Assembly (NCBI GenBank): GCA_022925895.1
Contig: JAKSYS010000068.1
Coordinates: forward strand, 1-64,000
Length of the DNA: 64,000 bases
Direction: 5' to 3'
DNA from: Fragilaria crotonensis
Lineage: Eukaryota > Bacillariophyta > Fragilariophyceae > Fragilariales > Fragilariaceae
Below the pieces are notes generated by a model that was not told where the DNA came from, made no database searches, and saw nothing but the letters and a program-made list of their open reading frames with translations. Shown one piece after another: positions 1 through 32,329 of this stretch; position 1 is the stretch's first letter; the number at the start of each line of letters is the position of its first letter. Made by a program: the position numbers and the translations under genes.

Positions 1-126
1 ATCATCATCATCATCATTATCCTTCTTGTTCTTGCTGCCCTCCTCTTGTTGCTTCTCTACCGGCGCCAACAGCACTGGCAGCTGTGGCATGAGCCATAAG
101 CTGTTCCATGTTGAAGTCACTGTACA

Positions 127-1566
127 CTACAACAACACGATTTTCAGGATTTGCTTGATCATCTTCTCCTCGTGCTGGATTTGCGCTGTCATTTTGTTTG
201 CCATACCTTTGATCATCTCCTCTCTGAAAATGTTGTCAAAGTTGGCCCCATTTGCCTGTCGGTCCCGATAAACATCAACCATAAGCCCATTGAATCGCTC
301 TAATCCATCCTTTGACCAGCTGCGCTTTGTTCCTCGGCTTCTCCCTGTACAATGCGTCTTCACCGTCGCCTTCTTTTGCTCTCCTTCTTGTTGCCGTTCT
401 GCTGCTGCTGCTATCGGAGCACGAGAACTTTGAGCCCATTCCCGATTCCACTTCGGTACATACGACTCTAGGCACAACAGTAGAAATGCCTCGTCTGTCA
501 GTGTAAACCATTCACTCAATGGTTTAGTCATCCTGTTATCAACGTACACTTTACGTCCAACCACTGCCCTCGCAAGACAATCCAACAACTCTACATATGC
601 TGGCCTTGATGGGAGATCATTCCCATGATGCTCCGCAAGCGGAATTCCCGGTTTGTTACAGCTAGTATATTATCTGTGGTAATATCAGCCAGAGAAGAGT
701 AGGGTGTTAGAAGAAATAGTGCATTGCCAGCATGATGTCACAGAAATCAGTCGCCACCATCTCACCGTTGAATTTTGTTTTTATTGTTTTGATCACATTG
801 TTCCTATGGTTTTTCAGTTTCTTATGGACAGCTTTTCGAACTCCCACCAACCTTCCACATCCGCTTCCTGAACTTTCATTTTTTCCGCCATGAATCTGCA
901 GATGGAATTACGGTTGTTGCTGAAGTCAAGATCACCATTCAAATTTGCAAACTTCTGCTTGGGAAACACATCCTCTTTCACACACTTCTCAAGCAACCAA
1001 TCTTTTTCCACATTTGTCAGTCTGTTCCCATATTGCATGACCCCTTCGTGACCAACTTGTCGCCCGTCTGTTGCTGGAGCATGAATGGGAGCTGCAACAA
1101 CAGCAGGTTCATCATAAGCAGGGTCGTCTTCTCCATCATCATCCTCCTCCTCACTTCCGTCTGTGTCGGCAAACAATCTTCGCATCATATGAGCATTAGC
1201 GGGAGGAGCACTTACATGAGAAGCTGCAGCAAGTCGTTGACGCGTCCTTCTTCTAGTTGAAGAATCTTCTGTGACATCAGCAGCACGACCGCGACCCTCA
1301 CGACCACCATCATGACAATCAGCAGAATTAGAACCTGCTTGAAGCGCAAGCATCAGTTGTCGTCGTGTTCGTGTAGCTGGAGAATCTTCAACTCTGTTGG
1401 CAGCAGCAGCCGCATCCGGTGGAGCAGGTGGAGGAGGTGGAGGAGGCGGAGGAGGCGGAGGAGGAGGCGGAGGACGAGGCGGAGGACCACCTCTAGCTCC
1501 TCGACCACTTCTCCCAGCACCTCCACCACGTTGTCGTCGTCCTGCTCGACCACGACCTCCTGCCAT
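127..1566 (-). CDS. two-exon gene of unknown family with RGG/poly-proline N-terminus
   Basis: I do not recognise a named family. The first exon starts at the ATG at 1566 (the frame is open upstream but only from a TTG) and runs to about 836. Its product begins MAGGRGRAGRRQRGGG, then a proline run encoded by a GGA/GGC microsatellite, then an acidic stretch, then a folded-looking end with NRLTNVEKDWLLEKCVKE. A second open block from about 660 to 127 carries DLPSRPAYVELLDCL and TDEAFLLLCLESYVPKWNREW, joined plausibly by a roughly 175-nt intron (donor near 836, acceptor CTAG near 661), though the donor is a weak GTCCAT. A second frame continues open to the window edge past 127 (with VVVVYSDFNMEQLMAH), so the 3' end is uncertain. 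The last part is basic and helical and could bind DNA. Nearness to transposase genes makes a transposon accessory protein possible; this is inference. Confidence 0.5.
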
Positions 1567-1689
1567 AGAGACTACCCCTGATCTTTGGGTGTGTTCTTTA
1601 AACGCGAGGACAAAAAGCCAGCATATGGCAAGATCACTCGGCTGACATGTGTTCTGTTTTGTTTTCGTGCGAGCACAAGACTTGTTCAA

Positions 1690-2600
1690 TATTTCGAAGT
1701 CTTGACAAAGTTATTCACATGCGTTTCAAAAATCTGCATATCCTTAGGGGAAGATGATTTATACTGAACGTTACACATAAGTATTCACATTCAATATACT
1801 TCTTCAAATGATCAGTTTAAATATGCATGAATATGTAGATGTTTTGAATTTTCGTTTTTGTCATTTGAATATGCATATTATACATATATCCGTATGTATA
1901 ACATACATTTCGCTAAATGAATCGATATGCGCATACATAATCATATGCGTTGAATTAAAATGGTTGCATGTTATGCTTATATTCATATATATAACATACA
2001 TTTCTCGCTAAATGAATTGATATGCGCATATATAATCATATGCATTTAATAAAAATGTGGTTGTTTGGAATTAATAATGTTCATCATACATTGTATGTAA
2101 TTCTTGGTATATTAAACAGGTGTTAATGTAGCATACACTCACCAACATGTACTTTCTTAGACAAAGTAGCCGTTTACGCGAAGTAGCGAGTCAATTTCCC
2201 GCTCGCAGTATCGCTATGAACATTCATAGTGTCTATACTGGCGATTCAATGGTATAAGACGACATCCTAGTAGTACTGAATACTTCGCAGGATGGACAAA
2301 TTTTTCTCAATAAAAAACAAGCACCAAAAGTACTGTCACATTCTACATGTGAATCATATCAGTAAATATTAGTGTACTTATATGTTCAATTTGCAATTAT
2401 GCTTTGCATAGTGAAGCTTTGTATGTATTCCTGCTCGCAACGTGATGCACAAGTTTTTGGTATGTTTTCTACAACGAATGTATTTGGCGATTCGGTTGTC
2501 TCTTTTTGTCAAATTTTCTCAACTAGAACACACTCACTGTTAGGCACTGACCCCGACAACCTTGTCACACTCATTGCCTTTCGTATCGCATTGATGTTTT
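1690..2600. other. AT-rich intergenic stretch without a gene
   Basis: About 900 bp with no convincing coding region. It is AT-rich from 1740 to 2100 and contains a tandem duplication (separate entry). The right part runs into the promoter-like repeats from about 2607. The edge of the DNA transposon to the right may lie here, but I could not find terminal inverted repeats by eye. Confidence 0.5.
1896..2058. repeat. AT-rich tandem duplication, period about 93 bp
   Basis: The segment beginning TATAACATACATTTCGCTAA at about 1897 recurs, slightly changed, from 1990. Both copies continue into TGATATGCGCATA-like and AATCATATGC words, and the TATGCGCATA core is itself a 10-bp palindrome. No function is visible. 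Confidence 0.7.
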
Positions 2601-2606
2601 GGAAGC

Positions 2607-3265
2607 TCCACCATCAACGAGCAGCAGATTTTGCAAGACTGTCGTTGTCTTGATCCACACCGGTCACTGGCTTCCAATTTTGCGTTCAGCTTTGCGTTTA
2701 CATCTATAAAGCTCAGCTGACGTCGATTTGGTTGTTAACGGCTGGCTGTTGGTGACAACGACGACGACAGGTCGTTGCATATTTGTTCTTCTTCGTTGGC
2801 TGTCACGTTGCAGAATTCTCGTCGGCGATCGCTCCGCCACTGATAACAGATATTGCGAGACTGTCGTCATTGTCTTGATCCACGCCGATTGCTGGCTTCA
2901 ATTTCGCGTTCAGCTTTGCGTTTACATCTATAAAGCTCAGCTGACGTCAATTTGGTTGTTCACGGCTGGCTGTTGGTGACAACGACGACGACAGGTCGTT
3001 GCATATTTGTTCTTCGTTGGCTGTCACGTTGCAGAATTCTCGTCGCTCCGCCACTGATAACAGATATTGCGAGACTGTCATTGTCTGGATCCACGCCGAT
3101 TGCTGGCTTCCAATTTCGCGTTCAGCTTTGCGTTTACATCTATAAAGCTCAGCTGACGTCGATTTGGTTGTTCCTGGCTGGCTGTTGGTTACGACAACGA
3201 CCGGTCGTGTTCGCGTGTTGCTCGCTGTTGGCTTCCTTGCTCCACCGTTGACGACAAATTTTGTG
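2607..3265 (+). promoter_or_regulatory. three tandem promoter-like repeats with TATA box and CRE
   Basis: Three copies of a 212-224 bp unit lie head to tail just before the dioxygenase-like gene. Each holds TATAAAG (TATAAA at 2705, 2929 and 3141) followed 13 bp downstream of the TATA start by a CRE-type TGACGTC core (2718, 2942, 3154). The middle copy has the full palindrome TGACGTCA. Each copy then has a CGACGACGACAGGTCG-like stretch and GATCCACGCCGATTGCTGG-like text. The last TATA lies 158 bp before the chosen ATG at 3299, a sensible promoter distance. CRE/bZIP sites are known CO2/cAMP response elements in diatoms; that these are used is inference. Confidence 0.65.
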
Positions 3266-3298
3266 AGGCCCATTCACTTTGATTGGCTCCAGTTGTCT

Positions 3299-5842
3299 AT
3301 GATGGCAGAGACTTCGTGCTCAACGACTTCATGTTCGACGTTGACAAAGGAATGGTTTGAGGATTCATCGTCGGAAGACGAGGCGGAGTTTTCTCAAAAC
3401 TGCTACCATGTTCGGCTATTCAAGAAGGGAAAGACCTCTACTTTGGCAAGAAGGTCTGATTCGTTGAGGAAGGACAAGGATCTGATGGTTGAGCTCAAAG
3501 TTAAAGTGAAGATTGAGTTGAAGGTTGTGTCTACTAAGGCTGTCTTGATGGCAAATGTGAGTGGTGGATTGAAGAACGCTGGTTCATCGACTAGTGCTGT
3601 TGATGATGCTGTGACCACGTTGCCATCTTCATCCCAAAGCACCAAACCACAGCAGAAGAAAAAAAAGAGTGGGAAGGCAGAAAACAATTGGCGTGAACGC
3701 CCAATTCGTGCTCGCCCTCATGGACCATTTCAACGCACTCTGCCAGGTGAGCTCTCCCGTGCCATTATTTTGGCAAGAGTGAACAATCGACAGACCATTC
3801 CGTTGACGGAAAACACCATGTCTGTGCCTATTGCCACACTTGGCGGTACCACAGAAGCTGATGCTGCTGTCGGCAGCAATTTTCCTGATCAGGGGACAGG
3901 GAGAACGAGGAAAGAAGTCAAGGCTGCGAGGAAGATAATCAAGGAAACAAAAGGTTTGGAGATTGGATTGCTTCGAGAGCATCCATCACTTTCTATGGCA
4001 AGTCACACTCAAGTTGCGAATGTAATAGCCAAGTGTCTGCCTTTGCAGTCTGTTGCTCCTTTCATGGTCAAGTTCAACAATTTTCGACCACCTCCTCTCC
4101 AAAAACGGAAGAAGCAAAAGCGGAAGAAGGGCAACGCCGCGTCTGTTCCAATACCACCTGCAGTTGTGGCGGCGGCGTCAGCTCTAGGTCCATCGGCATT
4201 TTGTGACGAGAAGATTTGCAAGACTCCCATCCAGTGGGTTGACTCATCCCTGAAACATGTGTTTGGTACTGAGTATGTCATGCTCAAGCGCTGCAAACAT
4301 CCTGATGAAATGTATAGTCATGGGGAAAGTCATTCCGATCTTGACCTGATTGTCATGGATTGTGTTCTCTCGAGAAGTGGTCCTATGGATTTGAAAAGGA
4401 AAAGGAAAGATGACGCCCATGCATGTGACAGTCCCGTGCATGTCTGTCTATTCGATGATGTTGATGCTGTCAATTTGGCAATCGCTGTTAGAGATGGAAA
4501 TGCCTTTTCTCGCCCTTCGGGGAAGAAGAACAGCGATAACTTCTACCGTGCATGCATTGTCCTCCTTCCCCAAGCTGGCATATTCTATTGCCACAGGGAG
4601 AGGCGCTCACGATCGACTGGGGTCCTTAATTCGCATGTCCCAATGGACATAAACTGGTTACGACTTCAGCATGATTCTCATGGTAACTTCTTCGGTGATG
4701 GATCTTATGTTTCACACCTTGCGAATGCTGATAAGTGTTCCATTTGGAAGTGGACAATTCGGCGCTCCGCCACAAACCTCTTGCCAATTCCCAATGCGAT
4801 CATGGGGGTGATGCCAAGATCACTTGTGAGATCTATTCACTGCACGAAGCAACTGATGGATGAGGAAGGACCTGGACTTCCTCCTGACTATGTTGTGGGT
4901 GAGAAGGATGAGTTGTTGAGTGCTGATCATAAGTTTCGAGCTGAGACATTCCAAGATGCGTTCTCGCGATCAAGGTCAGCCAAACGTGGAGGTCGCCATT
5001 ATGCACCGGGATTTCTGCACAAGACCATTGACCCGTTAACGACATTTGTTATCAATCCAATCAAATATGGTGAGCTTGACTTGCACGTTGATGTCACTGT
5101 ACCCGCAAATGCGGGCGAAGTTGCTTTCCATCGGTGTTCTGTGGTTCAAATCCGGTACCTCCCAAACGTTGTTGGATCAGGTTGTGAGGACCTTCTGACC
5201 GACATCAACAGGCATTGCAACTTGGTGAGAAAACAGAAGAGCAGCACGGGAGCAAGGGCTGGCAATGGAGACCTCGGATCAATGCATCCAATTGGAAGCC
5301 GCATCACAAAATGCTGGAACAAGGTGCCGTATGTGACATCATCAACTGTGGATGCTGCCCCGGTATTGTTGAAGGCTGTGCAAGCTGCGGCAAAGCTTGC
5401 ATCAGTGACTATCCCGGCTGCCCTCAGAGTGATGCAGGACTTGGAAAATGATTCTGAAATGAAGCATGTTGGTGGCATGGACGGAGGCATGTGCCGCGTT
5501 ACGCACAGCATGGACTTGTCAATTAATTTGGCAAATTCAACGCATTACGATGTGAACGATGCCAGTCAGGGGTTTACGATCTGGACTGAAGATCACCCTG
5601 GGACAACTGAGGATTGGTACTTTGTCCTTCCGAACATGAAGGGGAAATTCCCAGGATCGGATCGGGACTACAACGGAATTGCCATCAAATTGTCTGATGG
5701 TGTCCTGATTGGATGGGATGGCCGCCTGATCAGGCATGGTACATCCATGACAGGTTCCCGGAGTGGAAATATCTATGGTACGTTCTTTGCCCCAAAGACA
5801 CGGATCATCATGTATGGAATGTCCCAGTTACCAATGGTTTAA
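3299..5842 (+). CDS. large protein with C-terminal TET/JBP-like 2OG-Fe(II) dioxygenase domain
   Basis: The ATG at 3299 is the first in frame; the frame is open further 5' only through promoter repeats. The product is 847 aa. Residues 1-330 are low-complexity and basic, with KKKKS and lysine/arginine runs (QKRKKQKRKKG) that could be nuclear signals. The last 110 residues carry H749-x-D751 (THYDVNDAS), a following FVLP strand, a distal H813 in LIRHGTSM and R821 eight residues later, then IYGTFFA. H-x-D...H...R is the metal and 2-oxoglutarate site of the double-stranded beta-helix dioxygenases, and the spacing and flanks resemble TET/JBP proteins carried by fungal KDZ transposons. Those enzymes oxidise 5-methylcytosine or thymine in DNA. 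The stop lies 12 bp from the stop of a convergent Plavaka-like transposase, suggesting a shared mobile element. Substrate and activity are inferred; another 2OG oxygenase is the main alternative. Confidence 0.6.
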   Translation: MMAETSCSTTSCSTLTKEWFEDSSSEDEAEFSQNCYHVRLFKKGKTSTLARRSDSLRKDKDLMVELKVKVKIELKVVSTKAVLMANVSGGLKNAGSSTSAVDDAVTTLPSSSQSTKPQQKKKKSGKAENNWRERPIRARPHGPFQRTLPGELSRAIILARVNNRQTIPLTENTMSVPIATLGGTTEADAAVGSNFPDQGTGRTRKEVKAARKIIKETKGLEIGLLREHPSLSMASHTQVANVIAKCLPLQSVAPFMVKFNNFRPPPLQKRKKQKRKKGNAASVPIPPAVVAAASALGPSAFCDEKICKTPIQWVDSSLKHVFGTEYVMLKRCKHPDEMYSHGESHSDLDLIVMDCVLSRSGPMDLKRKRKDDAHACDSPVHVCLFDDVDAVNLAIAVRDGNAFSRPSGKKNSDNFYRACIVLLPQAGIFYCHRERRSRSTGVLNSHVPMDINWLRLQHDSHGNFFGDGSYVSHLANADKCSIWKWTIRRSATNLLPIPNAIMGVMPRSLVRSIHCTKQLMDEEGPGLPPDYVVGEKDELLSADHKFRAETFQDAFSRSRSAKRGGRHYAPGFLHKTIDPLTTFVINPIKYGELDLHVDVTVPANAGEVAFHRCSVVQIRYLPNVVGSGCEDLLTDINRHCNLVRKQKSSTGARAGNGDLGSMHPIGSRITKCWNKVPYVTSSTVDAAPVLLKAVQAAAKLASVTIPAALRVMQDLENDSEMKHVGGMDGGMCRVTHSMDLSINLANSTHYDVNDASQGFTIWTEDHPGTTEDWYFVLPNMKGKFPGSDRDYNGIAIKLSDGVLIGWDGRLIRHGTSMTGSRSGNIYGTFFAPKTRIIMYGMSQLPMV

Positions 5843-5854
5843 TATTGTTTCTAC

Positions 5855-8824
5855 TTAATTTTGACCATTGATGGTGTAATCAACCATTGCTGAATCGTAG
5901 AACATTGATGCCCATTTGTCCCTATCTGTTACAACAAGGACATCAGAGTCAGCGAGGTCAGGGTTGCTTAGGACAAAACACAAGCCAACAATGGCTTCTG
6001 AGGAGACAACATGAAACTCCTTCTCGAATGTCCACTCAGTGAACAGGAAGGACTCACGCCCAGTTGGTTTGCCACAACATTGAATAATGAGGTCAAACGT
6101 GGTGGTTTCAATTCCACCAAAGCAACTGTGGCGTGGTATGCAACTCACAATGCGAGATGGGTACTCCATCTCATTTCCCTCATCATCTTCATAGCGGATG
6201 AGAGCCCAATCATACCAGGAATACCCCTTTCCCCGGAAGTTGGGATGACAGCGAACAGAAACCATCTCCTCCTTTGTTTCAATGTTGTACTTATGGTACT
6301 CTGTGCGGCACCAGATACCGCCCACCCCATTGTCGTCAAGATCGGAGTCACTGTAAGTCTGCAAAATGAACAGTGCAAGATTATCTTCCAGTTCGATGTC
6401 TCCCCCTGGTCTGAGTGTCAAAGATTACATCACGACACAATCGATTATCATCCATAGGGTCAACGTATGACCTTACGTAATATGACGTTCCAGACCCTGA
6501 CTCACTCGTCAGAGGATCTTGGACATCGTCAGCAGCCAGTAATTGACTACGGTTAGTATGCTGTGATGATGTCTTCAAAACAGGTCGTTCTTGGAACATC
6601 GCGTGCATAGTATCAATCACGAGTGCGTCCGCAATTCTTTGGCCACACTGCTGGTCAATGGTGTCCACATTCTTCTGTGCACGTCTACCAGGACGTTTGG
6701 CGTGTGCCTTGTGATGTTCCTCAGGACGGGAGGCATTGTAACCACGCGGTGCTCCAAACGCAGCAATAAATCGTACGATGTGCTTGATCTCGTGAAATTT
6801 TGACAGTTTCCATCCATTGCCAGCGTGTCTCGGAAGATGTGTGTGATGAGATTCATCAGAGAAGCAATTGCTGCTTCAGCTTGTGATGCCTCTCCGTCTG
6901 GATCTCCAATATCCCAAAAGGTGTACTGATCAAGCCAGGCCTCAAAGCATAAAAGGCTTTCCATAGTCCCCAACACGGCATCCAATTTGAAGAAAATGCT
7001 CATCGAAGACTTCCCAACCTTCCGCTTGCATAATGAAGTAAGAAATGAGGAACAACGCCCCCGACTGTTCAGAGCATTCCACCATGGTGAGGTTTGTTAT
7101 TCCTCTGGAAAAATCAGTTCTGGGGAAAGAGGTGCGAATACTCTGACAGCACGTTGTGTCAAATATGAAAGCCATTTTGTCAAGCGTCGCCAGTGACTGA
7201 ACACTGAGGCTTTTTTTGAAGCAATCGAGAACATACATGATGATGCCATGTTGAATTGTATGCATCACATCAATAACTGCACACATGAAGATGCCGTGGG
7301 GGTTTTGCCCCATCTGAACACGATTGAAGGCATTGTCACATCTGTAAATTGAAAGCTGGCGGAGCTCCTCTTGTGAGCCATGTTGAGATGTGTAGTTGAT
7401 TGTCTCAGTCGATAGGAATGTGCACTCAACATCAGGATTATCTAGATCTTCATACAAGCAATCACATGAACGACGATGGTGACGCAATGTACTGCTGTGA
7501 TGGCCATTGATTCGGCAACAAAGTTGGTCACCTTGTTTGCCATCGTTGATGACAAACAACAGGGGCAAACAAGTTCGACAACAAACCACCTGTCACCAAG
7601 TTTCAGTGGTACGTGTTTTAAACGATCATCTAAACCAGCTTGACACTTCACCCAACCTGCCATCATCACATCCATGACCTTATGGAAATTACGAGTAGTG
7701 CGACCTTTCTCTTCAGCACATGCATTTGCAAAGCTATTCATTGCTGCAGAGCGCCCACAGTTCAGGTCTGGAACATAGCCCAGCAGACGCCATGCTTTTA
7801 CATCACGACGAACTTTCTCAGTGAAAAGAGATGTTGTGAATGACACAGGACAGATATCAATATGCCCCTTGCTGTCAATGACGGTGCCATCAAGGTACAT
7901 TATAATTGGTACAAGCAGCTGATCCTTCCCTTGTGCAAGTTGTTGGTACAATTCTCGATAACGTGAACCACTGTTTGCCTCGCCAACTTTGCTGTCAGTT
8001 GGTATGTACATTGACATTGGATACTCCTTATTGATGACAAGATTTTCCATCACCATCAATGACTCGTCTTGCAGCATTGACAATAATGCAGGTACAAAGT
8101 CAAAGCAAATAATATCTTGAGCCTTGTCGTGATCTTCAAGATTCGCTGTCAGTACCTTAGGAAGTCCTCTGTGTGAGTGTTCCAAAGCTTTGTACATCCA
8201 CTGGATGTTGGCTTTCCGTGTTGTAGCTTTTGGGTTGAAATCAAAGCCCTCTAACTTAGCATTGTATGCCCATTGCAGTACCTTCTGCAACATGTAGTCA
8301 GGACATTGGGCATCCTCCAAAAGCTTGAGGAGATTCACAATATTTCGATGTTCAACATCATGATGCAATACCATGATTGCATGGCGATCACCCGCTTGAA
8401 GGCGTTCCATCATGGCATGAAAAACTGGGCAAGATATAGCAATGTCACCGATGCCTGTTCTTGTAGACGAGTTCTGGTTCATTTCAACCTCCTGTTCATG
8501 AATGCCATCATCTGCGTCAAAATTACAACTAGCCGAGTAGTCAAAAACTTCGTAAGGCTCATACGATGGAGGATCTGCACTCATAAAAGGATTTAGACGT
8601 GAAGATTCAACGCCGTATCCCAAGCGCCGGGACCATGTACTCTCATGAACTACGTCAAGGCTAGCAGCAAGAGGCCTTGGTTCCGACATATAATCGCGAC
8701 ATGGAGCACTTCGCCATAAATGTTGACGAAGACCTCGTTCGGTTTTGAACGTAGCATAGCAGTTGACATTGAAACATGTGAAGGCTCCACTTTGAGATGC
8801 TGATGATGTGCTGCTTGGTGCCAT
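5855..8824 (-). pseudogene. Plavaka/CACTA-like DDE transposase, frame-broken
   Basis: The gene reads on the minus strand from the ATG at 8824. An N-terminal C2H2 finger (CFNVNCYATFKTERGLRQH) precedes a long transposase body. The first catalytic Asp is D312 in MYLDGTVIDSKGH, in a block closely matching fungal Plavaka proteins (LLGYVPDLN follows). The second is in IDVMHTIQHGI near 7255. The catalytic Glu is in RPEEHHKAHAKRPGRRAQKN near 6700, again a Plavaka hallmark. The acidic tail ends at 5855. The frame changes at about 7555, 6985, 6825 and 6415, each a one- or two-base slip with no GT-AG intron to explain it, so the copy is inactive. Plavaka elements are cut-and-paste transposons. Convergent with the dioxygenase gene. 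Confidence 0.8.
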
Positions 8825-9326
8825 TATGAAAACTGATCAACTTCCACGTCTTGCTTACTAATGGCAGTGGCTGGTGATGATGCCAAGTCAGTAAGATGGT
8901 TTACACCAAAAATGAAATTAAGCCTTCTGTTGGAAAATATGGCGCGAAGATTGTATCATACTAGTAGGAGATACACGGAAAGCATGAACAACAACCGATG
9001 AAAAAAGGGAAGCACGTCTGTCAAGCTTACGAACGTGCGGAAAGGATGTAGAAGATACATAACATCTGACCAATAGAGAGGATAGTATGTAAACTTTCCG
9101 AGGAATCATACAGTAATAGGATATTGTTGTGAAAGTATTTCTATCATAGATACAAATAAGTATAAAAAGACCTTTGTAAATGTAACCATGTACAAAACAA
9201 AGATATCATGTTTACAGACCTAAACAAACCTAAGTGATTTTCAAATCGAATAAATTTTGTTAGATATATGCGGTCAATACATATTTTCTTGGTGCATGAC
9301 CACAGATTTATGTCCAAACCACAGAT
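8825..9326. other. intergenic between two transposase genes
   Basis: About 500 bp without a gene. A TATAAAA at about 9162 lies some 165 bp before the PiggyBac ATG and could serve it. One TTAA occurs at 8918; I could not match it to a PiggyBac terminal repeat. Confidence 0.4.
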
Positions 9327-11090
9327 ATGGGCTTCCTGATGTGGGTAAGGGCATCAATTGATGATCCTCCATTGAATGGTATGGTCCCAAAACGAATGTG
9401 GAGCGTTCGTAACTCGGTTGGTGAGGCATTCACGCCTGGTGTCAACGTTCGTCTTACACAAGATGTTTCACCTCTCGAATTTTTTCTTTTGATGTTTCCT
9501 CCAAAACAATTGACTGATATGGTGCGCTGGACCAATCTTCAACTTCTCAGATCGTCTCTGAAACTGACCGATGCCAGTGAGCTGTTAAAGTTCTTTGGAG
9601 TACTCATTCTGACAACAAAGTTTGAGTTTACAACACGAGCATCGTTGTGGAGTACAACGGCATGGTCGAAGTATCGACCAGCTCCTCAATTCGGGATGAC
9701 CGGCATGTCCAAGCACAGGTTTGAAGAGCTCTTTATTCATACCAGATGGAGTCACCAGCCTGAAGAACGCATTGATTGTACTTCTGAAGAATATAGGTGG
9801 ATGCTGGTTGATGATTTTGTGACAAACTTTAATGAGCATCGCCAGAACTTTTTCTATCCATCCGAAATGATTTGTGTGGATGAAAGCATGAGCCGATGGT
9901 ATGGACAGGGAGGCCACTGGATCAACCACGGCCTCCCACAGTATGTTGCACTTGATAGGAAGCCTGAGAACGGTTGTGAGATTCAGAATGCGGCATGTGG
10001 AGTAAGTGGAGTCATGCTGCGACTCAAGCTTGTTAAAGGAGCAAACTTGCCGGGAGTTGAGGACGAAGACTTCGCCGACAACAGCAACAGCTTGCTACAT
10101 GGTACACGGGTGCTGAAGCATCTAGTGTCACCGTGGTTTGGTTCACATCGTATTGTGTGTGCTGATTCCTATTTTGCATCTGTTGGAGCAGCCAATGAGC
10201 TGTTTCGCAACGGCTTGAGATTCATTGGCGTTGTCAAGACTGCGACACGAGGGTTCCCAAAACAAATCTTGACAAGCGTGGAACTTCAAAACCGCGGAGA
10301 CTTTTTTGCTCTCAAAGCCAATGCTACAGCCCGTACGCCAGCGCTTGGAGCAATGGTGTGGATGGATCGGGAGCGCCGATACTTTATATCGACGGCAGGT
10401 TCGTTTGAAGCGGGAACGCCGTATCAGCGATCCCGATGGCGACAAGTTGACCAGACACCAAATGCAGCGCCAGAGCAAGTGGTGTTTACAATACCACAAC
10501 CAAAGATTGCTGAGATATATTACTCTACATGTGGTTCAATTGACAGGCACAACCGACTTCGACAGGATGATCTTTGCATCGAGAAAAAGGTTGAAACAAA
10601 GGATTGGTCGCGGCGGGTGAATTTATCAATTTTTTCCATGATTGTTGTCGACACGTGGTTGGTGTTCAATGCCTTAAGGAACACTCCACAATTGGAACTC
10701 AATCAAAAAGAGTTCTATTCTGTGCTTTCTGAGGAGTTGATTGACAACTCCTACCTTTCTAGAGGTCGCCCATCAAGTCAGTCTCGATCCTCACCAAACA
10801 ATCCATCCTATCAGGAAGCATGTCGCAGAGCATTGGAAAGCGGAGGCCCAAGGTCAGGTGTTCTTGCTCATCTCACTCCTGTTAAGCGTCTAAAGAAAAG
10901 TAAAGGTGAGGAAACAAGTTTTAGGTACCAAGGGAGATGCAAGGAGTGCCAGAACAAGACAACATGGCAATGCTCCGAGTGCGAGGATAATGAAAAAACC
11001 GTCTTTCTTTGTTCCACAAAAAATGGGAAACGATGCTTCGTTGACCACCTGTCTCGCAACCATGCACACTTTGATACCTTCTTAGACTAA
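9327..11090 (+). CDS. PiggyBac-type transposase (DDE_Tnp_1_7)
   Basis: A 587-aa uninterrupted protein starting at ATG 9327. It shows the PiggyBac catalytic triad: D185 in ICVDESMSRWYG, D280 in VCADSYFASV and D406 in GSIDRHNRLRQDDL, with the family's FFGVLI-like start of the core near residue 90 and RVNLSIFSMIVVDTWL after the third Asp. The C-terminus holds a cysteine-rich finger (CKECQNKTTWQCSEC, then FLCSTKNGKRCF), as in many PiggyBac proteins where it binds the element's ends. PiggyBac enzymes cut and paste at TTAA. No frame breaks are visible, so it may be recently active or domesticated. An additional short 5' exon cannot be excluded. It is on the opposite strand to the Plavaka gene. Confidence 0.9.
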   Translation: MGFLMWVRASIDDPPLNGMVPKRMWSVRNSVGEAFTPGVNVRLTQDVSPLEFFLLMFPPKQLTDMVRWTNLQLLRSSLKLTDASELLKFFGVLILTTKFEFTTRASLWSTTAWSKYRPAPQFGMTGMSKHRFEELFIHTRWSHQPEERIDCTSEEYRWMLVDDFVTNFNEHRQNFFYPSEMICVDESMSRWYGQGGHWINHGLPQYVALDRKPENGCEIQNAACGVSGVMLRLKLVKGANLPGVEDEDFADNSNSLLHGTRVLKHLVSPWFGSHRIVCADSYFASVGAANELFRNGLRFIGVVKTATRGFPKQILTSVELQNRGDFFALKANATARTPALGAMVWMDRERRYFISTAGSFEAGTPYQRSRWRQVDQTPNAAPEQVVFTIPQPKIAEIYYSTCGSIDRHNRLRQDDLCIEKKVETKDWSRRVNLSIFSMIVVDTWLVFNALRNTPQLELNQKEFYSVLSEELIDNSYLSRGRPSSQSRSSPNNPSYQEACRRALESGGPRSGVLAHLTPVKRLKKSKGEETSFRYQGRCKECQNKTTWQCSECEDNEKTVFLCSTKNGKRCFVDHLSRNHAHFDTFLD

Positions 11091-11492
11091 TCCTAATAGT
11101 TCAATGTGCTTTCATGAGTGTCAACACTTCCATCTTGACCGTCATGGTCAACACCATTTTTGAGTAGATGGCAGTATTTTTTGTACGCACGATCGAAAAA
11201 AATGATTGGATTAATTAAGGCAAATGAGTGGATTAATTAAGGCACATGGACCGGGTGGGGTAGACACTAGTACTGCCAACTGAGAGGCACTATCATACTG
11301 TAGTACTTCAGTACAGCGTTTCAGTACTACTACTTCGAACTTTGAAGTTTAGTAGGGTCCAGGTACTCGAGTACTTGCATAAATTCCTGGGGTCGTCGTA
11401 TATTGGGTGTAAAATCGATTCCATGCATTGTAAGTTGTAAGCCAAAGTCAACTGTCACCTGACAACGATCAACGCTTTTGGAAAAGCTCTCC
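11091..11492. other. intergenic with short TTAATTAA duplication
   Basis: About 400 bp with no gene. GGATTAATTAAGGCA occurs twice, at 11208 and 11230 (22-bp period), a candidate scar or end of the neighbouring TTAA-targeting PiggyBac element. From 11260 to 11370 the text is rich in AGTACT/GTAC words like other intergenic parts of the window. Confidence 0.45.
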
Positions 11493-14221
11493 ATGTTGGT
11501 TCCACCTCTCCGAGTTCCCCTCGCTGTTGACCTTAGGGAATCGTTTGTTAACTGGTTGGTCGAGGCACAGCAGCAACAACAGCATCAGCAACAACAACGA
11601 AAACGACCGATCCCTGTTTTCACGGCCATTGATTGTCACGATGATCTTGCCACGATGAACCATCTTCGATCACAGCTTTCGGATCGCATTACCACATCTC
11701 ATTCGTATGAAGAAGCCAGTCAGTTGGTGAGCGTGATGCATGAATATTATGCCATGCTGAAGGAATGCGAAGAACGAGGTTTTCCGTCGGAACAAACTCA
11801 AGAATCATCTGCATCATCGACTATTCGATTGGAATGGAGCGTGGCATTTGTCGAAGATGACACAAATGGCACAAGTAGAAATGTAGATGTTCATTCTGGT
11901 CTCCTATTGGAACGGGCATCGATTCTTTGGAACCTAGCAGCGCTCGAAGCCCATGTTGCTTCAAAACACGAACAAATTGCTAATGCAAAGGGGTGGATGC
12001 AAGCGAACAAGCATTTACAAAATGCGTTCTCATTCATCCATCATTTAAAAGATATCATTGGTGAGGATCAGGGGCAGCACTCTACCGATTTCCAATCACA
12101 TGTGGTCGATTTTTGGGAGATTGCACTCCAAGCTCACGCTCAAATGGCAGGCTACGAAAAAGCAAAAGCTACAACCCGACCCAAACATGCACTGCTATCC
12201 AAATTAGCGCAGGCTTCGGTTCCACTCTGGGATGCAGCAAGCGAAGCAAGTGCCGCCTTATCAACACGCGAAGCGACTCATTGGAATGTACGTTCAAAAG
12301 TCTTGTCGTCGTATATGAGCTGCAGGGCGGAATGGCATGAATCAATGACACATTTTGAAAAGAATCAGACGGGTCATGAGCTAGTGCGTCTTGAAAAAAG
12401 TCTTTCCTATGGAACCATTTGCTACGACACTATCAATTCCGGCCAGACGCATGATCGTGCCAACATTGGCATGCTCGAAGACCGCATAAAAGAGGAATTG
12501 CCCGCGTTTCTCAATGAGCTGCACAAACGATATACGGAAGCAGTGGAGCGGTTGGGCGACGACCCCGTTCCAAATGATTTGCGTGACATTCGCGGTGAAC
12601 TGCTGAGCAAGGGCGTTGTCCCTCTCCCCAAGACCATGCTGGAGCCACCGTTTCCCATGTTCACCAACATTTTGTCACCTGCTGCTCGAAGTGCCATTGC
12701 AATGTTCCAGAGTGAAATGGACAAGTTTGTCCTTTCAATCTCAGCCATGGTGAATGAGAAGACCGAGATTGCTCGACAAACACTGGCCTCAGTTAACCTG
12801 CCACACTCACTCACGGCGTACAACCAAGAGCAATCGGGTGGTGGTATTCCCATGGAGCTGTGGGCGCGGGTGGAAAACATTCAACGCGAGCGTACAATGG
12901 AGTTCGTGACGAAAGAGCGGTGGCGACTGCGCGATGTGGCGGAGCAGGCAAGGACAATCTACGTCAAGATTCAAAAGCAGTTGATAGAAGATGTCGAAAT
13001 GGATAAACTTTTTCGGCAGCAGCATCCATCCTTTGATGGCCATAGTGTGCAAGAATTTCAAACGAGCTTTCGCCGGTCCTTAGCAAAATACGAGAAGTTG
13101 CTGGGCGAATCACAAGCTGGTGATGCCGTGCTCTTACGTCGTCTTGGTGAGTAACTTTATCTCTGATTGCACTCATGCCGTTACGAGTAGTGTCTTACAT
13201 TCTTCCTTGCGATTGCCCCGGAACAGAGGTTCTTGATCAGGACTCCAAATTCAAGCTATTGCAATTTGGGAAGTCGCAACTCGATAGGTTGTTACCAGGC
13301 AAGGGTGGTGCAAGAGCACCTGCCGTCGATACAACCAACCTTAGTAGCCTTGTCGTGGCTCTTTCCACCCTATTTCAAGATCGAGAAGTGACACTGGGAT
13401 TTCTAAAAGCGGAAGTCAAAAACTTCAACATTCGAGAAAGAATGCTGAATATCAACCCCGAATCGCCCACCGCCGATGAAGAGTATTTGTTAGCAGTCAA
13501 GAAATCACAAAAATCCTTCTCTGGTATTGCATATGAGATCCAACGTAACATCAGGAATCAGACAGACCTCTTGGATGCAATCATGGAGGAAAATGAGCTA
13601 TTTATTGCGGCACGAACATCCGGAAGAAGCTCTGCCGCCAGTGAATCATGCATCGCCTTGATCGAAGAAGCACTGGAAGAAATCGACCAAATGGCCAAGC
13701 ATCTAAAGGAAGGGACGGAATTTTACGAGCTTGTCATTCCCAAACTTGAATATCTCAAGCAACAAGTGGGTGATGCATCGGTCCGATTCACTGTGGATCG
13801 TTGCGAATATGAAGACAATCACACAACTTCGATTGGTCGGCGCCGACAAGAATTAGACGATGCTCGAATGGCAGCCTCTCTTGCAGACAACAACAGCAGC
13901 CGCAACATCAATGATACCAACAACAACGATGGTGGTGGTAGTAGTAATGGAGAGACAGGAGGAGATCGGGATCGAGGTGACTCTGAGCATCTTTTGGCGA
14001 ATCAGCCTGGTTTGGACTACCAAGTTCGTGGAGATCACATGGTTGCAGCGAGTCATCCCGGTGCAGTGAACGTGAATCATAGCGAGCCGCAGGTTCGAGT
14101 CGATGATGAAAAGGTTGCATCTCTCGTTGCCATGGACTTTGACCCTGACAAGGTGGTGGCTGCATTAAGAAAGTATGACAACAATTTGGAGCAAGCATTG
14201 AATGAATTGCTGTCGTGTTGA
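11493..14221 (+). CDS. ALIX/Bro1-domain ESCRT adaptor with C-terminal UBA domain
   Basis: Two exons, 11493-13146 and 13227-14221, joined by an 80-nt GT-AG intron (GTGAGT...GAACAG), give 882 aa. Start is the first ATG, since the upstream open frame begins only at TTG. Residues 1 to about 380 are a Bro1 domain (ASILWNLAALE, HLKDIIGE, LSSYMSCRAEWHESM) with an internal glutamine run. The middle is the helical V-domain (VEMDKLFRQQHPSFDGHSVQEF; TRSGRSSAAS region). ALIX links ESCRT-III to cargo in endosomal sorting, membrane repair and cytokinesis. Instead of the usual proline-rich tail, it has an Asn/Gly-rich linker and ends in VASLVAMDFDPDKVVAAL...ALNELLS, a clear UBA (ubiquitin-binding) domain at about 842-880. 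The family call is firm; the UBA fusion is unusual. Confidence 0.92.
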
Positions 14222-26559: not shown

Positions 26560-29500
26560 TTGGGGCGACGAATGCCAAGGCAAAGAACCAATGTTACTCG
26601 AGTTTATGCAATAAACTTAAACGGGTTACAATTAGATAAAAAAGGGGGCAAGTTTGACTCCGTGTGTCGATATATCAAAGAGATACAGGCTGATGTTTTT
26701 TGCGGGCAAGAACATAGCGTGGATACTACACAAGCATCAGTCAGAAACATACTGTTTAATTGGGAACGCAGTCGCATCGTGGTGGGCACCTCACCAATTC
26801 CATTCCAAACGCCGTTTAAACCTGGAGGCACTATGGTTATGACAGTTGGCTCACTAACTGGTCGCTTGTGTAAACAAGACCGAGACAAGTGGGGTAGGTG
26901 GTCAAGTCAAGTCTTCCAAGGTCGAGCTGGGAGGAAAGTGGCAATTATATCCGCATATCAACCTATTGTCAAAGGTGGCATCGCAGGAAAGATAACAGTC
27001 GCAGCACAACATGTTAGCTTATTGCTTCAATCGGAAGATAAAATTTCAAATCCTAGAGTAGCGTTTCGACGCGACTTATCAAAGTGGTTGAAAGAGTATC
27101 AAGACGACGGATGTGAAATTCTACTCATTGGTGACTTCAATGAAACTCTGGGAACGGATCCCGACGGCATGAGTAAAATTGCAAGTGATCATCACTTACT
27201 GGACATTATGGCCAGCCGCCATTCCTCAGCACCACCGGCAACGTATGCACGAGGATCGAAGCGACTAGATTATGCACTCGCGAGTCCTCAGTATGCAACG
27301 CAGTACTCAGAGCTGGGTATGAAGCCTTCAACAACGGTGTGGCGACCGATCATCGGGGATATTTTATGGATTTCAAGACGGACGTATTGTTCGGATCGGA
27401 CACCCAAACTCTGGTAAACCGCACCACACGGGAACTCTCGTCACGCCACCATAAACAGGTAACAGCATATATCCGCAGGAAACACGAACTGCTCACAAAA
27501 TGTAATGCGTTTGAACGATCGGATCGACTCCAAACACCAGGTGATCGCCACGCATTTGCGGAGCGTTTAGATCGCGACATTCTGGATGCAAGCCTGAACG
27601 CTGAAAAGGATCTCCCAAAGGTATTCGAACCAGCCTGGTCGGTTGCACTGGCCCAGGCTCGTAAGAAAAAGCTCGTCCTCACCAAACAATTAACAGCCCT
27701 GAAGACTGGCTTGAACCATCACGAAATACTGCGTAAGGACGCGAGGTCATTGGATAACCCTTCGAACTCCCTGAAACAGTTCAGACATGCTCGAGTGCAA
27801 TGCGAGCCATGGATCAGGAAATCAAAGAACTGGTGGCGACGAGCACGGAAAGACGAGATCAAGAACTCAAACAGAAGCTTCACAACTTGGAGCAATCAAT
27901 GGATTCGGCTGATCGGAAAACGGCAATTCAGATACGACGGCTAAAAAGGCGGAGGACATAAAAATATGTTCAAGAAATTGGCAAATGTGCGGAAAACTCA
28001 CACGAGACAAGGAGTAACAAGAGTGGAAGTTCCCGGTTAGAAGGTGAGGACCCAAAACATGTACGGACTGGATCCAAATTGATGTCCCTACCGAAGTCCT
28101 GGAAAGATTGCAACAACGGAATCGCAACCATTTCGGCCAAGCGTTCGAACACCGTTCACGGTACCACCCTTGCCACCGACTTGGGAATGGATGGAGCAAC
28201 TCTGCACGGTCAACAGATCTTAGATGGCGTATACAATAGTACTACCTTACATGGTAACGTACAACTTTGTTGAGCCACATGAAACAAGTACACGACATCC
28301 GTCAAAATCCATCGAAGCCAACCATCACAGAAGAAGAGTTTGAAGGCAAACTTCGGGTATGGACAGAGTCGACGACAACATCTCCCTCTGGACTTCACCT
28401 TGGTCACTACAAGGCACTGATTGCCAAGCACAGCTACAAGACGGACGCCTCAGATGATGAACTCACGTCTGAATTTAAACAACAAAGGGAGGAACTGGAC
28501 TTCAAACAGCACGAGTTGTTCTGCTTGCATCTCAACATGCTGAATTATGCACTGAAGAGAGGGTATTCATACAAACGATGGCAAATCATCGCGAATACCA
28601 TTTTATTCAAAGACCCCGATAACGTTCATCTTCATCGTACAAGAGTTATTCATATATATGAAGCAGACTTTAATTTGGCACTCGGAGTTAAGTGGCGAGA
28701 GGCGATGCAGAAAGCAGAAGACAGCCAGGCGTTGAATGATGGGCAATATGGTTCCCGGGCTGCCCGATGCGCTCCGGATCCAGTCTTCATCGAAGAGTTA
28801 CAATGCGAAATCTCCAGAGCAACCAGGAAACCGGTAATCTTAACAAACTACGACGCCACCGCGTGCTACGATCGCATCATTCCCAATTTGGGCATGCTAG
28901 CAAGTCGGAAGTTCGGAGTCCCAGTGGAGGTGACGCAGACAAATGTTACAACCTTGTCAACGGCGGAGTATAGGATACGTACCGAATTGGGATTGGCATC
29001 CACGGGGTATCGACACGAAGACTCGTTCCCGATCTATGGGACAGGCCAAGGAAGCGCAAATTCTCCAGGGATCTGGTGTATGTTGTCAAGTGCTTTGTTG
29101 GATGGGTACGATCAAGTCGCCGTTCCCGCGCAGTATGTCGGAACCGAGAATGAGAAAGAAACCACAGCAACGCTTGGACTGATCAGCTTTGTCGACGATT
29201 GCAACGGCCAAACGAATCAGTTTGAATCGGATGGCTCCACAACTACAGTGAAACAACTGTTTACTCAAACCCAGAAGAATGCGCAAGAATGGAGCGATCT
29301 GTTACACGCTAGTGGCGGTGCATTAGAGCTGTCTAAATGCTCGAGTCATGTCATGCAATGGAAATTCTCGCGTCAAGGCGCCCCAGTGCTAGTCCCTTTC
29401 CACGAAGAGTTTCAAGATATCTTACAAGTACAAGATCAACAAACAAACGAAACCCATCAACTCAAATTACTCTCGGTATATGATGCGCATAAAACCTTGG

Positions 29501-32329
29501 GACACTACAAAGCACCGGTAGGAAACCAAATGGAACAGTTTCGCCAACTAAAAAGAAAAAGCGACGACGCTGTGGCGTTCCTGTGGACATGCCCATTGTC
29601 GCAACTGGAAGCTTGGACATACTACTACGCATGTTACCTTCCTAGCGTGGGTTACCCGCTGGCGTGTTCGTCTCTTAAAAAGCAGCAACTCGCGACTATT
29701 CAACGGAAAGCAATGTCTATCATAGTGGCGCGATGCGGATATAATCGTAATACAAAACGGGAAATCCTTTATGGGCCATTGGACTTGGGTGGAGCAAATT
29801 TCCGACACTTGTACGTGCAACAAGGAGCAGGGCAGGTTACGATGTTCCTTCGCCATTGGAGACTCAAGTCCACAGCCGGCAAACTTCTTCGAATTGCGGT
29901 ATCGTGGTTTCAACAGCAAACAGGCGTGTCATACTCTATTCTGGAAAACGTAAAAACATCCCTCCCCCACCTTGAATCCAAATGGTTGGGATCACTCAGA
30001 ACATTCTTAGCTGAAACGGACATGTATTTACAGGTGGATGCTCCATCCATACCAAAGCTCCAACGACGGTACGACCACCACTTGATGGACGCAATTTTGG
30101 ATTCACACAAATTTACCGATGCGGAAATACGGAGGTTAAACTATTGTCGATTGTATCTGAAAGCGGTGACGTTAGCGGATATCTCGAGCATTAATGGGAA
30201 GTATCTGGACAAACCGAAATGGACTGGGGAATCCTCACTTGTGGCAAGCACAACACATGGTAACGTTATCTATCAAGAGCGGCCATCGGACCAAGAGTGG
30301 ACGTTATGGCGGCGAATGTGTAAGACGTTGTGGAGCGACAAGGAAGGGAAGTTGCACGAACCATTAGGCCATTGGACCCAACCCACGCCATCTCAACGGC
30401 AACAACATCACGCATACTTGGAACACGAAGCGTTATGCGGATCAGATACTATCCTATGGGTCCGCATAAATAGCGAGGAATATACAAGGTGTATCCAAAC
30501 GGAAAGTCCGTGGGTATACTGGGAAACAACGCAGTGTCGAGCGTGGAAAGACTTACCACCTCATGCGTCTCCCAGCAATGTCGACCTTCGAGCCCCAAAC
30601 CTCTGGAATTTAGTCTATCGCGCGGCCACGGACTTCTCAACCAATAACGTACAACCGGTGGCGACGTTTGAAGCTTTTGTGAACAGTCTCCCGTCATGGG
30701 AAGCTGAATTGTTACAACACGTAGATATGTCGGAAGATGCCTTTACAGTAAGCGAGGTCTTGTCTCATGGTATTCAGGCGGTAAGCGATGGTTCCGTGTG
30801 GACGGACAACCAAGGAGCATATGGATGGATGATCAGCTCGGATCTAGGGGACAGAGCTGTTCGAGGTATGGGACCAGCACGGGGCGCCAAGGTTGACTCG
30901 TACAGAGCAGAAGCATACGGTATGCTCGCTATTTTATGCTACCTTCGAAGACTGGCAGAGTTCACAACCCAAACGGAGCCATGGACGGAATCTTAGCAAC
31001 CGATAGTCAAAGTCTGTTGGAATCTATCACAGTGCCGCCATCACCACAGGACGAACCAGCATGCGGAACAATGTATTCAACATTGAAACAAGTCAAGCAT
31101 CTTGACGTGAAGTGCCCCGAATGGGACCTGCTAAGTAGCGTCCTCACGGAACTTCAGCGTTGGCCAGGAATAACTCTTCAACACGTGAGGGGACATCAAG
31201 ATCGGAAAGTTGCGTACGCACGTCTTCCTCTTTTAGCACAACTCAACGTGGACGCAGATCTAATGGCTACCACGTACCAGTGCGAGCAAGGCATGTCACG
31301 ACCCATCGTTCTCCTCACAGACACTGCAGGAGTGCACCTGGTTACGCCAAATGGCAGCATGACAAAAAACTACGAATCCGCCATAAGATATCAGGCGACG
31401 AAACCAGGTTTAGCAAAGCATATCCAAGAACGATATGGGTGGTCCGCAAGCGTCATGAATAACGTGAACTGGAGAGCGCACGGTTCAAGTCTACGGAAAC
31501 AAATTAAACGGAAGACACACTACACTAAATTGGTCCACGAGATCCTTCCCACAGGAAAATGTACATCGGAGAGATCCACTGAAACCAGTGCCCGCTATGT
31601 CATGCAGTTGCGGAAGATTGGTGTCATATACTCCGATGTCCCCACGCGAATCGAGGGACCTGGCGAGCTCAAGTGATACAAAAAGTCGACGAGCGCTGTG
31701 AGGCCCTTAGAACCAGACCGTTGTTAAAGACAGTTCTCCGGGATGCACTCACCGGATGGCTCCAAAGTGATACCGATGAGTACCAATTGAATCCTCAGCA
31801 GTATCCAAAAGATGTCCACCGCTTAATCCGTCAGCAGAATGATATTGGATGGCAGCAGCTATTCTTAGGACGGTTCAGTAACGAATGGAGCGACATACAA
31901 GAGAACTACTATGCAAAGACGGCAGCAGAAACGGCTCCGGCTGCGAAGAAGACTGCGAAACAGACTGGTCTCCGATGGCAAGTTGCCATTATTGGGATAA
32001 TTTGGGAGCAATGGTGGGCCCTATGGGAGATTCGAAATAAGGACCTCCATGGAGAAGACGAACGATCGAGGACACAGGCGGAGACACGAGAGGTACATCG
32101 GAAACTGACGGAACTATATGACCTTCGGCCACGATTAAGCAACGAAGTTCAAGCGTTAATGTACGAAGAAGTCACGGAGCACTATGATCGGCCAAATTGG
32201 GTCAATAAAAATTGGATCGCAATCCACGAGCCGCTTATAAAGGCGGATTTGAAACGAGTGACAACACGGATAAAAGCAGGGACGCGATCTATTCGGCAAT
32301 ATCTGATATCACGAGTAGTGGGAACATAG
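26560..32329 (+). pseudogene. LINE ORF2: endonuclease, reverse transcriptase, RNase H (broken)
   Basis: The endonuclease shows GQEHS, IGDFNET (near 27135), KRLDYAL (near 27275) and, one frame over, DHRGYFMDF (27345), the four landmark motifs of APE-type enzymes. The reverse transcriptase (28267-30996) has LTNYDATACYDRI (motif A), YGTGQGSANSP (motif B) and ISFVDDCNG with the catalytic Asp pair at 29194-29199. RNase H follows: AVSDGSVWTDNQGAYGW near 30785, then TDSQSLLES and HVRGHQD in the next frame. A conserved C-terminal tail (31673-32329, WWALWEIRNKDLHGED) ends the protein. Frames change near 27340, 27945-28270, 30960 and 31675, so the copy cannot be autonomous. Confidence 0.88.

Follow-up and report, generated by a model that had tools for sequence, protein, structure and literature searches.

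A Plavaka-type transposon of the diatom Fragilaria crotonensis with a convergent cargo gene for a likely 2-oxoglutarate-Fe(II) dioxygenase

A dioxygenase-like gene and a transposase gene in one element

The stretch of DNA described here, called the window below, comprises positions 1 to 64,000 of the forward strand of contig JAKSYS010000068.1 (contig C659 in our numbering) of the diatom Fragilaria crotonensis (assembly GCA_022925895.1). Near its start lie two genes that face each other tail to tail. The dioxygenase-like gene occupies positions 3299-5842 of the + strand and encodes a protein of 847 aa when read from ATG 3299, or of 846 aa from the alternative start ATG 3302, with a conserved core at ~4523-5827. 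Its stop codon (TAA 5840-5842) is separated by 12 bp from that of a Plavaka-type transposase gene on the - strand (5855-8824, TAA 5855-5857), just as an earlier reading of the letters alone (the sequence-only reading) had claimed. The transposase is indeed present where that reading had placed it, but in the window it does not form one open reading frame (ORF); it consists of three overlapping pieces in different frames (ORFs 5855-6421, 6942-7589 and 7442-8824). Thus, the window copy combines a broken transposase with an intact dioxygenase-like ORF. In the copy on contig C30, the transposase is a single open frame of 993 aa.

The two genes, together with a third gene, are enclosed by 22-bp terminal repeats (CATCAGG...CCTGATG) and form one mobile element. 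The window copy fills positions 1-9341. Its right end was set at 9341, as the alignments of five copies from the same genome (L021, L022, L026, L027 and L039) with the window stop there and continue into unrelated flanks. The left end, located with the help of the copies on C26, C487, C674, C30 and C594, lies ~310 bp upstream of the start of the window, which is also the start of the contig. The right terminal inverted repeat (9320-9341, + strand, CACAGATATGGGCTTCCTGATG) matches the left end of other copies at 21/22 bases, and the element ends, CATCAGGAAGCCCAT...ATGGGCTTCCTGATG, show an inverted match at 21/22 terminal bases. A copy with both ends, on C487, measures 9663 bp, and one with an internal deletion, on C26, measures 6740 bp. 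The target duplications fit a length of 2-3 bp in two of the three copies checked (AAT/AAT in C26 and AT/AT in C487); the flanks in C30, where just four flanking bases precede the contig end, do not fit such a duplication. The sequence-only reading had drawn the element at 2607-8824. Both genes are placed as it stated, but the element is larger, and while the pair was recognised, the third gene, the upstream tandem arrays and the pairing with MULE-like transposases described below had been missed.

The third gene is divergent from the dioxygenase-like gene. It is represented on the - strand by a C-terminal ORF piece at 127-588, with homologues in L021, L022, L024, L026, L028 and L033, and by an Arg/Gly- and Pro-rich N-terminal ORF piece at 814-1689. 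Clear homologues of this gene occur in the window family, in L025 and in L033, and weak matches (26-33%) in L036 and L040; a Pfam search with it gave no match of note. Between the third gene and the dioxygenase-like gene lies a tandem array (2625-3189; period ~224 bp and 2.6 copies according to Tandem Repeats Finder, TRF), which has a CpG observed/expected ratio of 1.32 and ends 113 bp before the gene.

The termini of the element match the definition of PlavakaB, which, in the portion of Kojima 2025 (PMC12730594) used here, is given as CATCA..TGATG ends with 2-3 bp duplications; according to the same portion, all TET+ fungal Plavaka families fall in PlavakaB. Neither the window pieces nor the intact C30 transposase matched the Plavaka profile PF18759. 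Related lineages in the genome matched it at 92 places (best E 2.6e-14). Of these, 15 are within 8 kb of a dioxygenase-like locus; 13 are convergent to it, 8 of them scoring over the cut-off, and the other 2 share its strand. The core of the window transposase is ~34-37% identical to several of the best PF18759-matching lineages. A check for the D-D-E, C(2)C and H(3-4)H motifs found two Asp, a Glu in an E..H context, HTIQH (C30) and CRAC (C829), the set being incomplete in some members. On this evidence we classify the element as Plavaka-type and PlavakaB-like; the Plavaka lineage proposed in the sequence-only reading holds for the transposase by its termini and by PF18759 on related loci, though not on the window copy itself.

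Convergent pairing across the genome

The genome comprises 62.1 Mb in 881 contigs, and gave 19 matches to the silicon transporter family PF03842, a marker of diatoms, 18 of them over the cut-off; these transporters agree with a diatom as the host. Searches with two dioxygenase-like queries, after clustering, gave at least 94 loci, four of them shorter than 600 bp and some allelic or fragmentary, and the transposase searches gave at least 181 loci among the matches listed. The genome searches score the best candidates only, all locus lists being incomplete and all counts lower bounds. Neighbours were sought within 6 kb for the listed transposases and within 8 kb for PF18759 matches.

A listed transposase was found near 57/94 dioxygenase-like loci, and the two genes were convergent in every case (57/57). 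MULE-like transposase neighbours add 10 loci, all convergent (10/10), and PF18759 matches add four convergent loci and one same-strand case, C317. Altogether, 71 of the 72 listed loci with a detected transposase neighbour are convergent, 61 with a Plavaka-type and 10 with a MULE-like transposase, which would have a probability of ~1e-41 if the four possible arrangements were equally likely, although the loci are not independent events. Seen from the transposase side, 57/181 listed loci have a convergent dioxygenase-like partner, 123/181 have none listed, and the transposase at C518:33399 has a same-strand dioxygenase-like neighbour only, 4.3 kb off.

The sequence-only reading had proposed to look for the same convergent pair and for terminal repeats enclosing it. 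Within the diatom's own genome both were found, and the genes do travel together: several copies, and families that have diverged from each other, have shared terminal repeats around them. There is hardly any doubt about the pairing or its conservation. The idea of a chance neighbour was dropped, as it is contradicted by the orientation counts. Also dropped was the idea that close transposase relatives without a match in the first search lack the gene; C17, C43, C137, C471 and others carry a diverged convergent copy.

Two of the contigs, C487 and C674 (L021/L041 and L028/L043), carry a near-identical element with near-identical flanks, being 98.8% identical over 2448 bp, of which ~2.2 kb is flank. 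They are probably allelic, and locus counts in the assembly may be inflated.

The dioxygenase-like protein

With residues counted from ATG 3299, the H749-x-D751, H813 and R821 pointed out in the sequence-only reading are all in place. H749 and D751, putative Fe ligands, belong to an H749-Y-D751-V-N753-D754 motif (5543-5560, + strand), and H813, the putative third ligand, closes a GVLIxWDGRLIRH813 block, which is followed by R821 as the putative Arg binding 2-oxoglutarate (2OG) (block and R821: 5699-5761, + strand). Both HxDVND and WDGR-x-I-R-H are present in 20/21 loci (the window and L021-L040), the region being deleted in L026, and the H, D and H of the triad are invariant across loci. The Arg stands 7 or 8 residues past the last His, thus not in one alignment column, in 19/20 loci; in L021 the frame breaks there. 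An HxD followed by a His ~62 residues on and by an Arg 7-8 residues further is a usual layout of 2OG-Fe(II) dioxygenases. Moreover, an Asp always occurs five residues after the first His (D754 in the window), at a place that we take to be equivalent to D234 of NgTet1, which is H229 plus five. The Ala mutant of NgTet1 D234 is described as inactive in the portion of PMC11404850 used here.

Other conserved motifs of the core lie upstream of this region (YCHRERR, RHYxxGxLH and GDxGxMHPxGTRI). Ten aligned cores, from the window and nine loci, showed 46-74% identity to the window. In pairwise comparisons of these cores, ratios of nonsynonymous to synonymous substitution rates (dN/dS) ranged from 0.10 to 0.23 among the five pairs with dS < 1; 18/45 pairs were saturated, and the remaining pairs with dS > 1 gave 0.11-0.26. 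Judged by these substitution ratios, the core is under purifying selection. The gene is a multi-copy, conserved transposon cargo under selection.

From its motifs, the protein is likely a 2OG-Fe(II) dioxygenase that is TET/JBP-like in these motifs. A genome search with the Tet_JBP profile PF12851 gave no match, but it was a weak search, in which the controls yielded one sub-threshold match only; a search with 2OG-FeII_Oxy_6 (PF20515), run without a positive control, gave no match either. No sequence homologues of the protein were found in viral contigs or GTDB genomes.

The dioxygenase-like ORFs of L034, L035, L036 and L040, in some Plavaka-linked families, are 1099-1291 aa long, with C-terminal extensions of ~400-570 aa past the core. 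L036 gave no Pfam match.

MULE-like partners of the dioxygenase-like gene

In L030 and L031, the ORFs convergent to the dioxygenase-like gene matched MULE (PF10551) and then SWIM, with E values of 5e-4 to 0.014 that are below curated cut-offs. The remaining eight MULE-like partners were assigned by their similarity to the L030 ORF, which for C80 and C353 is 30% only. A dioxygenase-like partner was present at 10/21 listed MULE-like loci.

In a tree of the ten cores, rooted at the midpoint only, the MULE-linked L029, L030 and L031 grouped with the window and L025 at 100/100, and the five other Plavaka-linked sequences stood apart from this group. The MULE-linked fragments on C80 and C353 showed 72-73% identity to C829, as if they belonged with the other Plavaka-linked members (70-74%) and not with the MULE-linked L029-L031 (60-64%). 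By identity alone, C80 and C353 may represent a second switch to a MULE-like partner. The cargo has probably been exchanged between the Plavaka-type and MULE-like superfamilies, a reading in which the linkage is observed and the direction is what we infer. Gene exchange between transposon superfamilies is reported for fungi in the part of PMC12730594 used here.

The contig of the window also carries, outside the window (C659:142551-145815), a broken MULE-like transposase related to the dioxygenase-paired one, with no listed dioxygenase-like locus beside it.

CpG signature of the elements and CpG-rich upstream arrays

Among nine copies of the window family, transitions were found at 52/5152 CpG sites versus 60/24963 other C/G sites, which is a fourfold excess (Fisher P 6e-13, an optimistic value, as minority states common to two copies were counted twice). 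In contrast, CpG transversions were not raised (7/5152 vs 46/24963, P 0.58). CpG observed/expected ratios were 0.77 for the element as a whole, 0.69 and 0.66 for the two genes, and 1.01 for the remainder of the window, starting at 11.4 kb. The genome contains DNA C5-methyltransferase domains (15 matches, fragments of a single gene being counted separately in some cases). Since CpG transitions are raised and transversions are not, and since such domains are present, the elements look CpG-methylated.

A tandem array was found within ~500 bp upstream of the dioxygenase-like gene in 16/20 loci scanned, the loci without one being L032, L034, L038 and L040; L023 lay outside the scan. The array periods range from ~94 to 224 bp, and the units differ between families. 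The CpG ratio of the array falls into the 96th-100th percentile of element windows in 8/9 loci and into the 81st in L031, some of these loci being of the same family, and at several of these nine loci, among them the window copy, the array is surpassed in CpG ratio by another element window. We infer that the array may be a cis-target or a promoter held open by the dioxygenase. Loci with an array upstream of the gene include L025, L029, L030, L031, L033, L035, L036 and L037.

Neighbouring features in the window

The element is abutted by a piggyBac-type transposase ORF (DDE_Tnp_1_7; 9327-11090, + strand), the first 15 bp of which, as called, are element sequence; this gene was probably cut by the insertion of the Plavaka-type element. 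Further downstream, an ALIX/BRO1-like gene with a UBA domain extends over two ORFs, perhaps separated by an intron (11478-14221, + strand), and a reverse transcriptase ORF (28267-30996, + strand; RVT_1, E 2.3e-5, below the curated cut-off) probably belongs to a retroelement.

Discussion

We read the window element as a copy of a Plavaka-type transposon with a lasting convergent cargo, a 2OG-Fe(II) dioxygenase of a diatom family, which would counter silencing by CpG methylation. We give this reading a probability of a little under 0.6. The host would methylate the element at CpG sites, as the observed substitution signature suggests, and would thereby silence it. The dioxygenase would oxidise 5-methylcytosine (5mC) on the element, mainly within the CpG-rich array that precedes the dioxygenase-like gene, and this oxidation would keep the element transcribed until transposition. 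The same cargo would work with more than one transposase, Plavaka-type as well as MULE-like. An anti-silencing role through 5mC is plausible from what the sequences offer. A broader version of this proposal, which we hold tentatively and at somewhat less than even odds, is that diatoms have transposon-borne DNA dioxygenases of their own, not detectably TET/JBP, encoded by a 3' cassette that moves between unrelated superfamilies, is convergent with the transposase gene and protects from methylation a CpG-rich array that is specific to its family and precedes the dioxygenase gene, as an enzymatic counterpart of VANC.

Several observations weigh against the anti-silencing reading. A listed transposase is missing from 22/94 listed dioxygenase-like loci, and C317 has a same-strand one only; 11/21 MULE-like loci are without a listed partner; and the loci are not independent events, because the copies share ancestry and some contigs appear to be allelic. 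Among host windows, 5% have a CpG ratio at least as high as the 1.32 of the window array, and another window of the element has a higher one (1.46). Within the window family, CpG transitions in the array (2/618 vs 50/4534 elsewhere, P 0.08) show a trend only, and transitions outside CpG are likewise scarce in it (0/1516 vs 61/23619, P 0.05). With every kind of transition scarce in the array, its state could be due to homogenisation of the repeats or to conservation in general, and we dropped the shortage of CpG transitions as a proof of protection. As for the protein, which the sequence-only reading had named a TET/JBP-like dioxygenase, the motif triad and the basic residue stand, but PF12851 matched neither the window protein nor 10 aligned members, and no profile match above chance was obtained in any Pfam, PHROGs or PDB search. 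The core (~435 aa) has a long N-terminal half without a known counterpart, and two single-sequence AlphaFold models of the window sequence, with predicted local distance difference test (pLDDT) scores of 33 and 31, were unusable for the fold; neither the profile searches nor these models gave evidence of the double-stranded beta-helix of TET/JBP proteins. Because the evidence is one of motifs, we call the protein TET/JBP-like in its probable working and do not place it as a TET/JBP member. Finally, N6-methyladenine (6mA), RNA or protein would suit its sequence equally well as substrates.

The protein might not be an oxygenase at all. Its conserved His, Asp and Arg would then belong to a new nuclease or to a DNA-binding accessory of transposition, with a role like that of a second transposition protein of CACTA elements, which would fit the lack of a profile or PDB match above chance, the extension of the conserved core far upstream of the HxD...H part, and the presence of an adjoining transposase in 72/94 listed loci. 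However, the HxD / H / R spacing is a usual 2OG layout, and pairing with a MULE-like transposase as well is hardly expected of a specific complex partner, so that we regard this alternative as unlikely. A shade less likely still is a 2OG-Fe(II) dioxygenase that targets 6mA, RNA or a host protein instead of 5mC and benefits the element by some other route. The motifs are compatible with the superfamily as a whole, base specificity is not readable from the sequence, and the fungal CcTET oxidises 6mA too, according to the portion of PMC12730594 seen; yet the CpG deamination signature of the elements, their CpG-rich arrays and the C5-methyltransferase domains of the genome speak for 5mC. By far the least credible alternative is that a host gene was accidentally hit or captured and that the pairing means nothing. 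The window copy alone could be so read, but at least 94 loci, shared terminal inverted repeats, convergence in 71/72 cases and purifying selection leave this reading next to no room.

If the anti-silencing reading is true, the origin or spread of transposon-encoded dioxygenases that modify DNA extends beyond fungi to stramenopile algae, one gene serves two transposase superfamilies, and enzymatic counter-methylation is a recurrent strategy of transposons. Diatom epigenetics would gain a testable enzyme, and the window copy, with its broken transposase and intact dioxygenase, would form with its ~90 listed relatives a set of natural comparisons for methylome data.

Comparison with known systems

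TET+ PlavakaB elements are described from the Agaricales fungi Agaricus bisporus and Gymnopus confluens (Kojima 2025, PMC12730594; cited here from part of its text). As far as that part goes, the diatom element resembles them in its Plavaka-type transposase, 5'-CATCA..TGATG-3' termini, 2-3 bp duplications (2/3 copies here) and dioxygenase-type cargo. In contrast to them, its protein has no detectable TET/JBP match and an HxD in place of the HxE of the fungal PE type, and the element has a near-constant convergent order, a third gene and an upstream array. Because TET+ Plavaka elements have been published in fungi, the combination is less new than the sequence-only reading had thought. Among open-licence full texts, with subscription literature outside the scope, we found no report of a transposon that carries a TET-like gene in a diatom or another stramenopile, and none of a transposon-borne diatom demethylase. 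In the excerpts of related papers, one on Ectocarpus transposable elements only cites the fungal work, the giant repeats of Amoebidium are flanked by a Plavaka transposase with tyrosine recombinases and no dioxygenase is named, and none is named for Plavaka in a green alga. New, as far as searched, are the diatom host, the protein family, the pairing with MULE-like transposases and the arrays rich in CpG, while the kind of element is known from fungi.

With NgTet1, TET2 and CMD1, the diatom protein shares the HxD...H triad and the Asp five residues after the first His (presumably D234 in NgTet1), but no profile similarity to them was found. KDZ and other fungal transposons reportedly carry TET/JBP genes, as Iyer is said to have described in 2014. 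They are like the diatom elements in the expansion of transposon-borne dioxygenases and in the exchange of the gene between superfamilies. The partners here, however, are Plavaka-type and MULE-like, and MULE is not among the lineages in the abstract of PMC12730594.

The targets of VANC in Arabidopsis are tandem repeats that vary between related elements, according to the portion of PMC5735166 used here, and the diatom elements resemble VANDAL/VANC, as described there, in what would be a transposon-encoded anti-silencing gene with variable tandem-repeat targets. They differ from VANDAL/VANC in that the diatom protein has an enzyme motif, its action on the array being conjectural. VANC is not known as an oxygenase. 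Since the arrays of the diatom elements differ between families, as they do in VANDAL/VANC, the analogy suggests that each element may protect itself.

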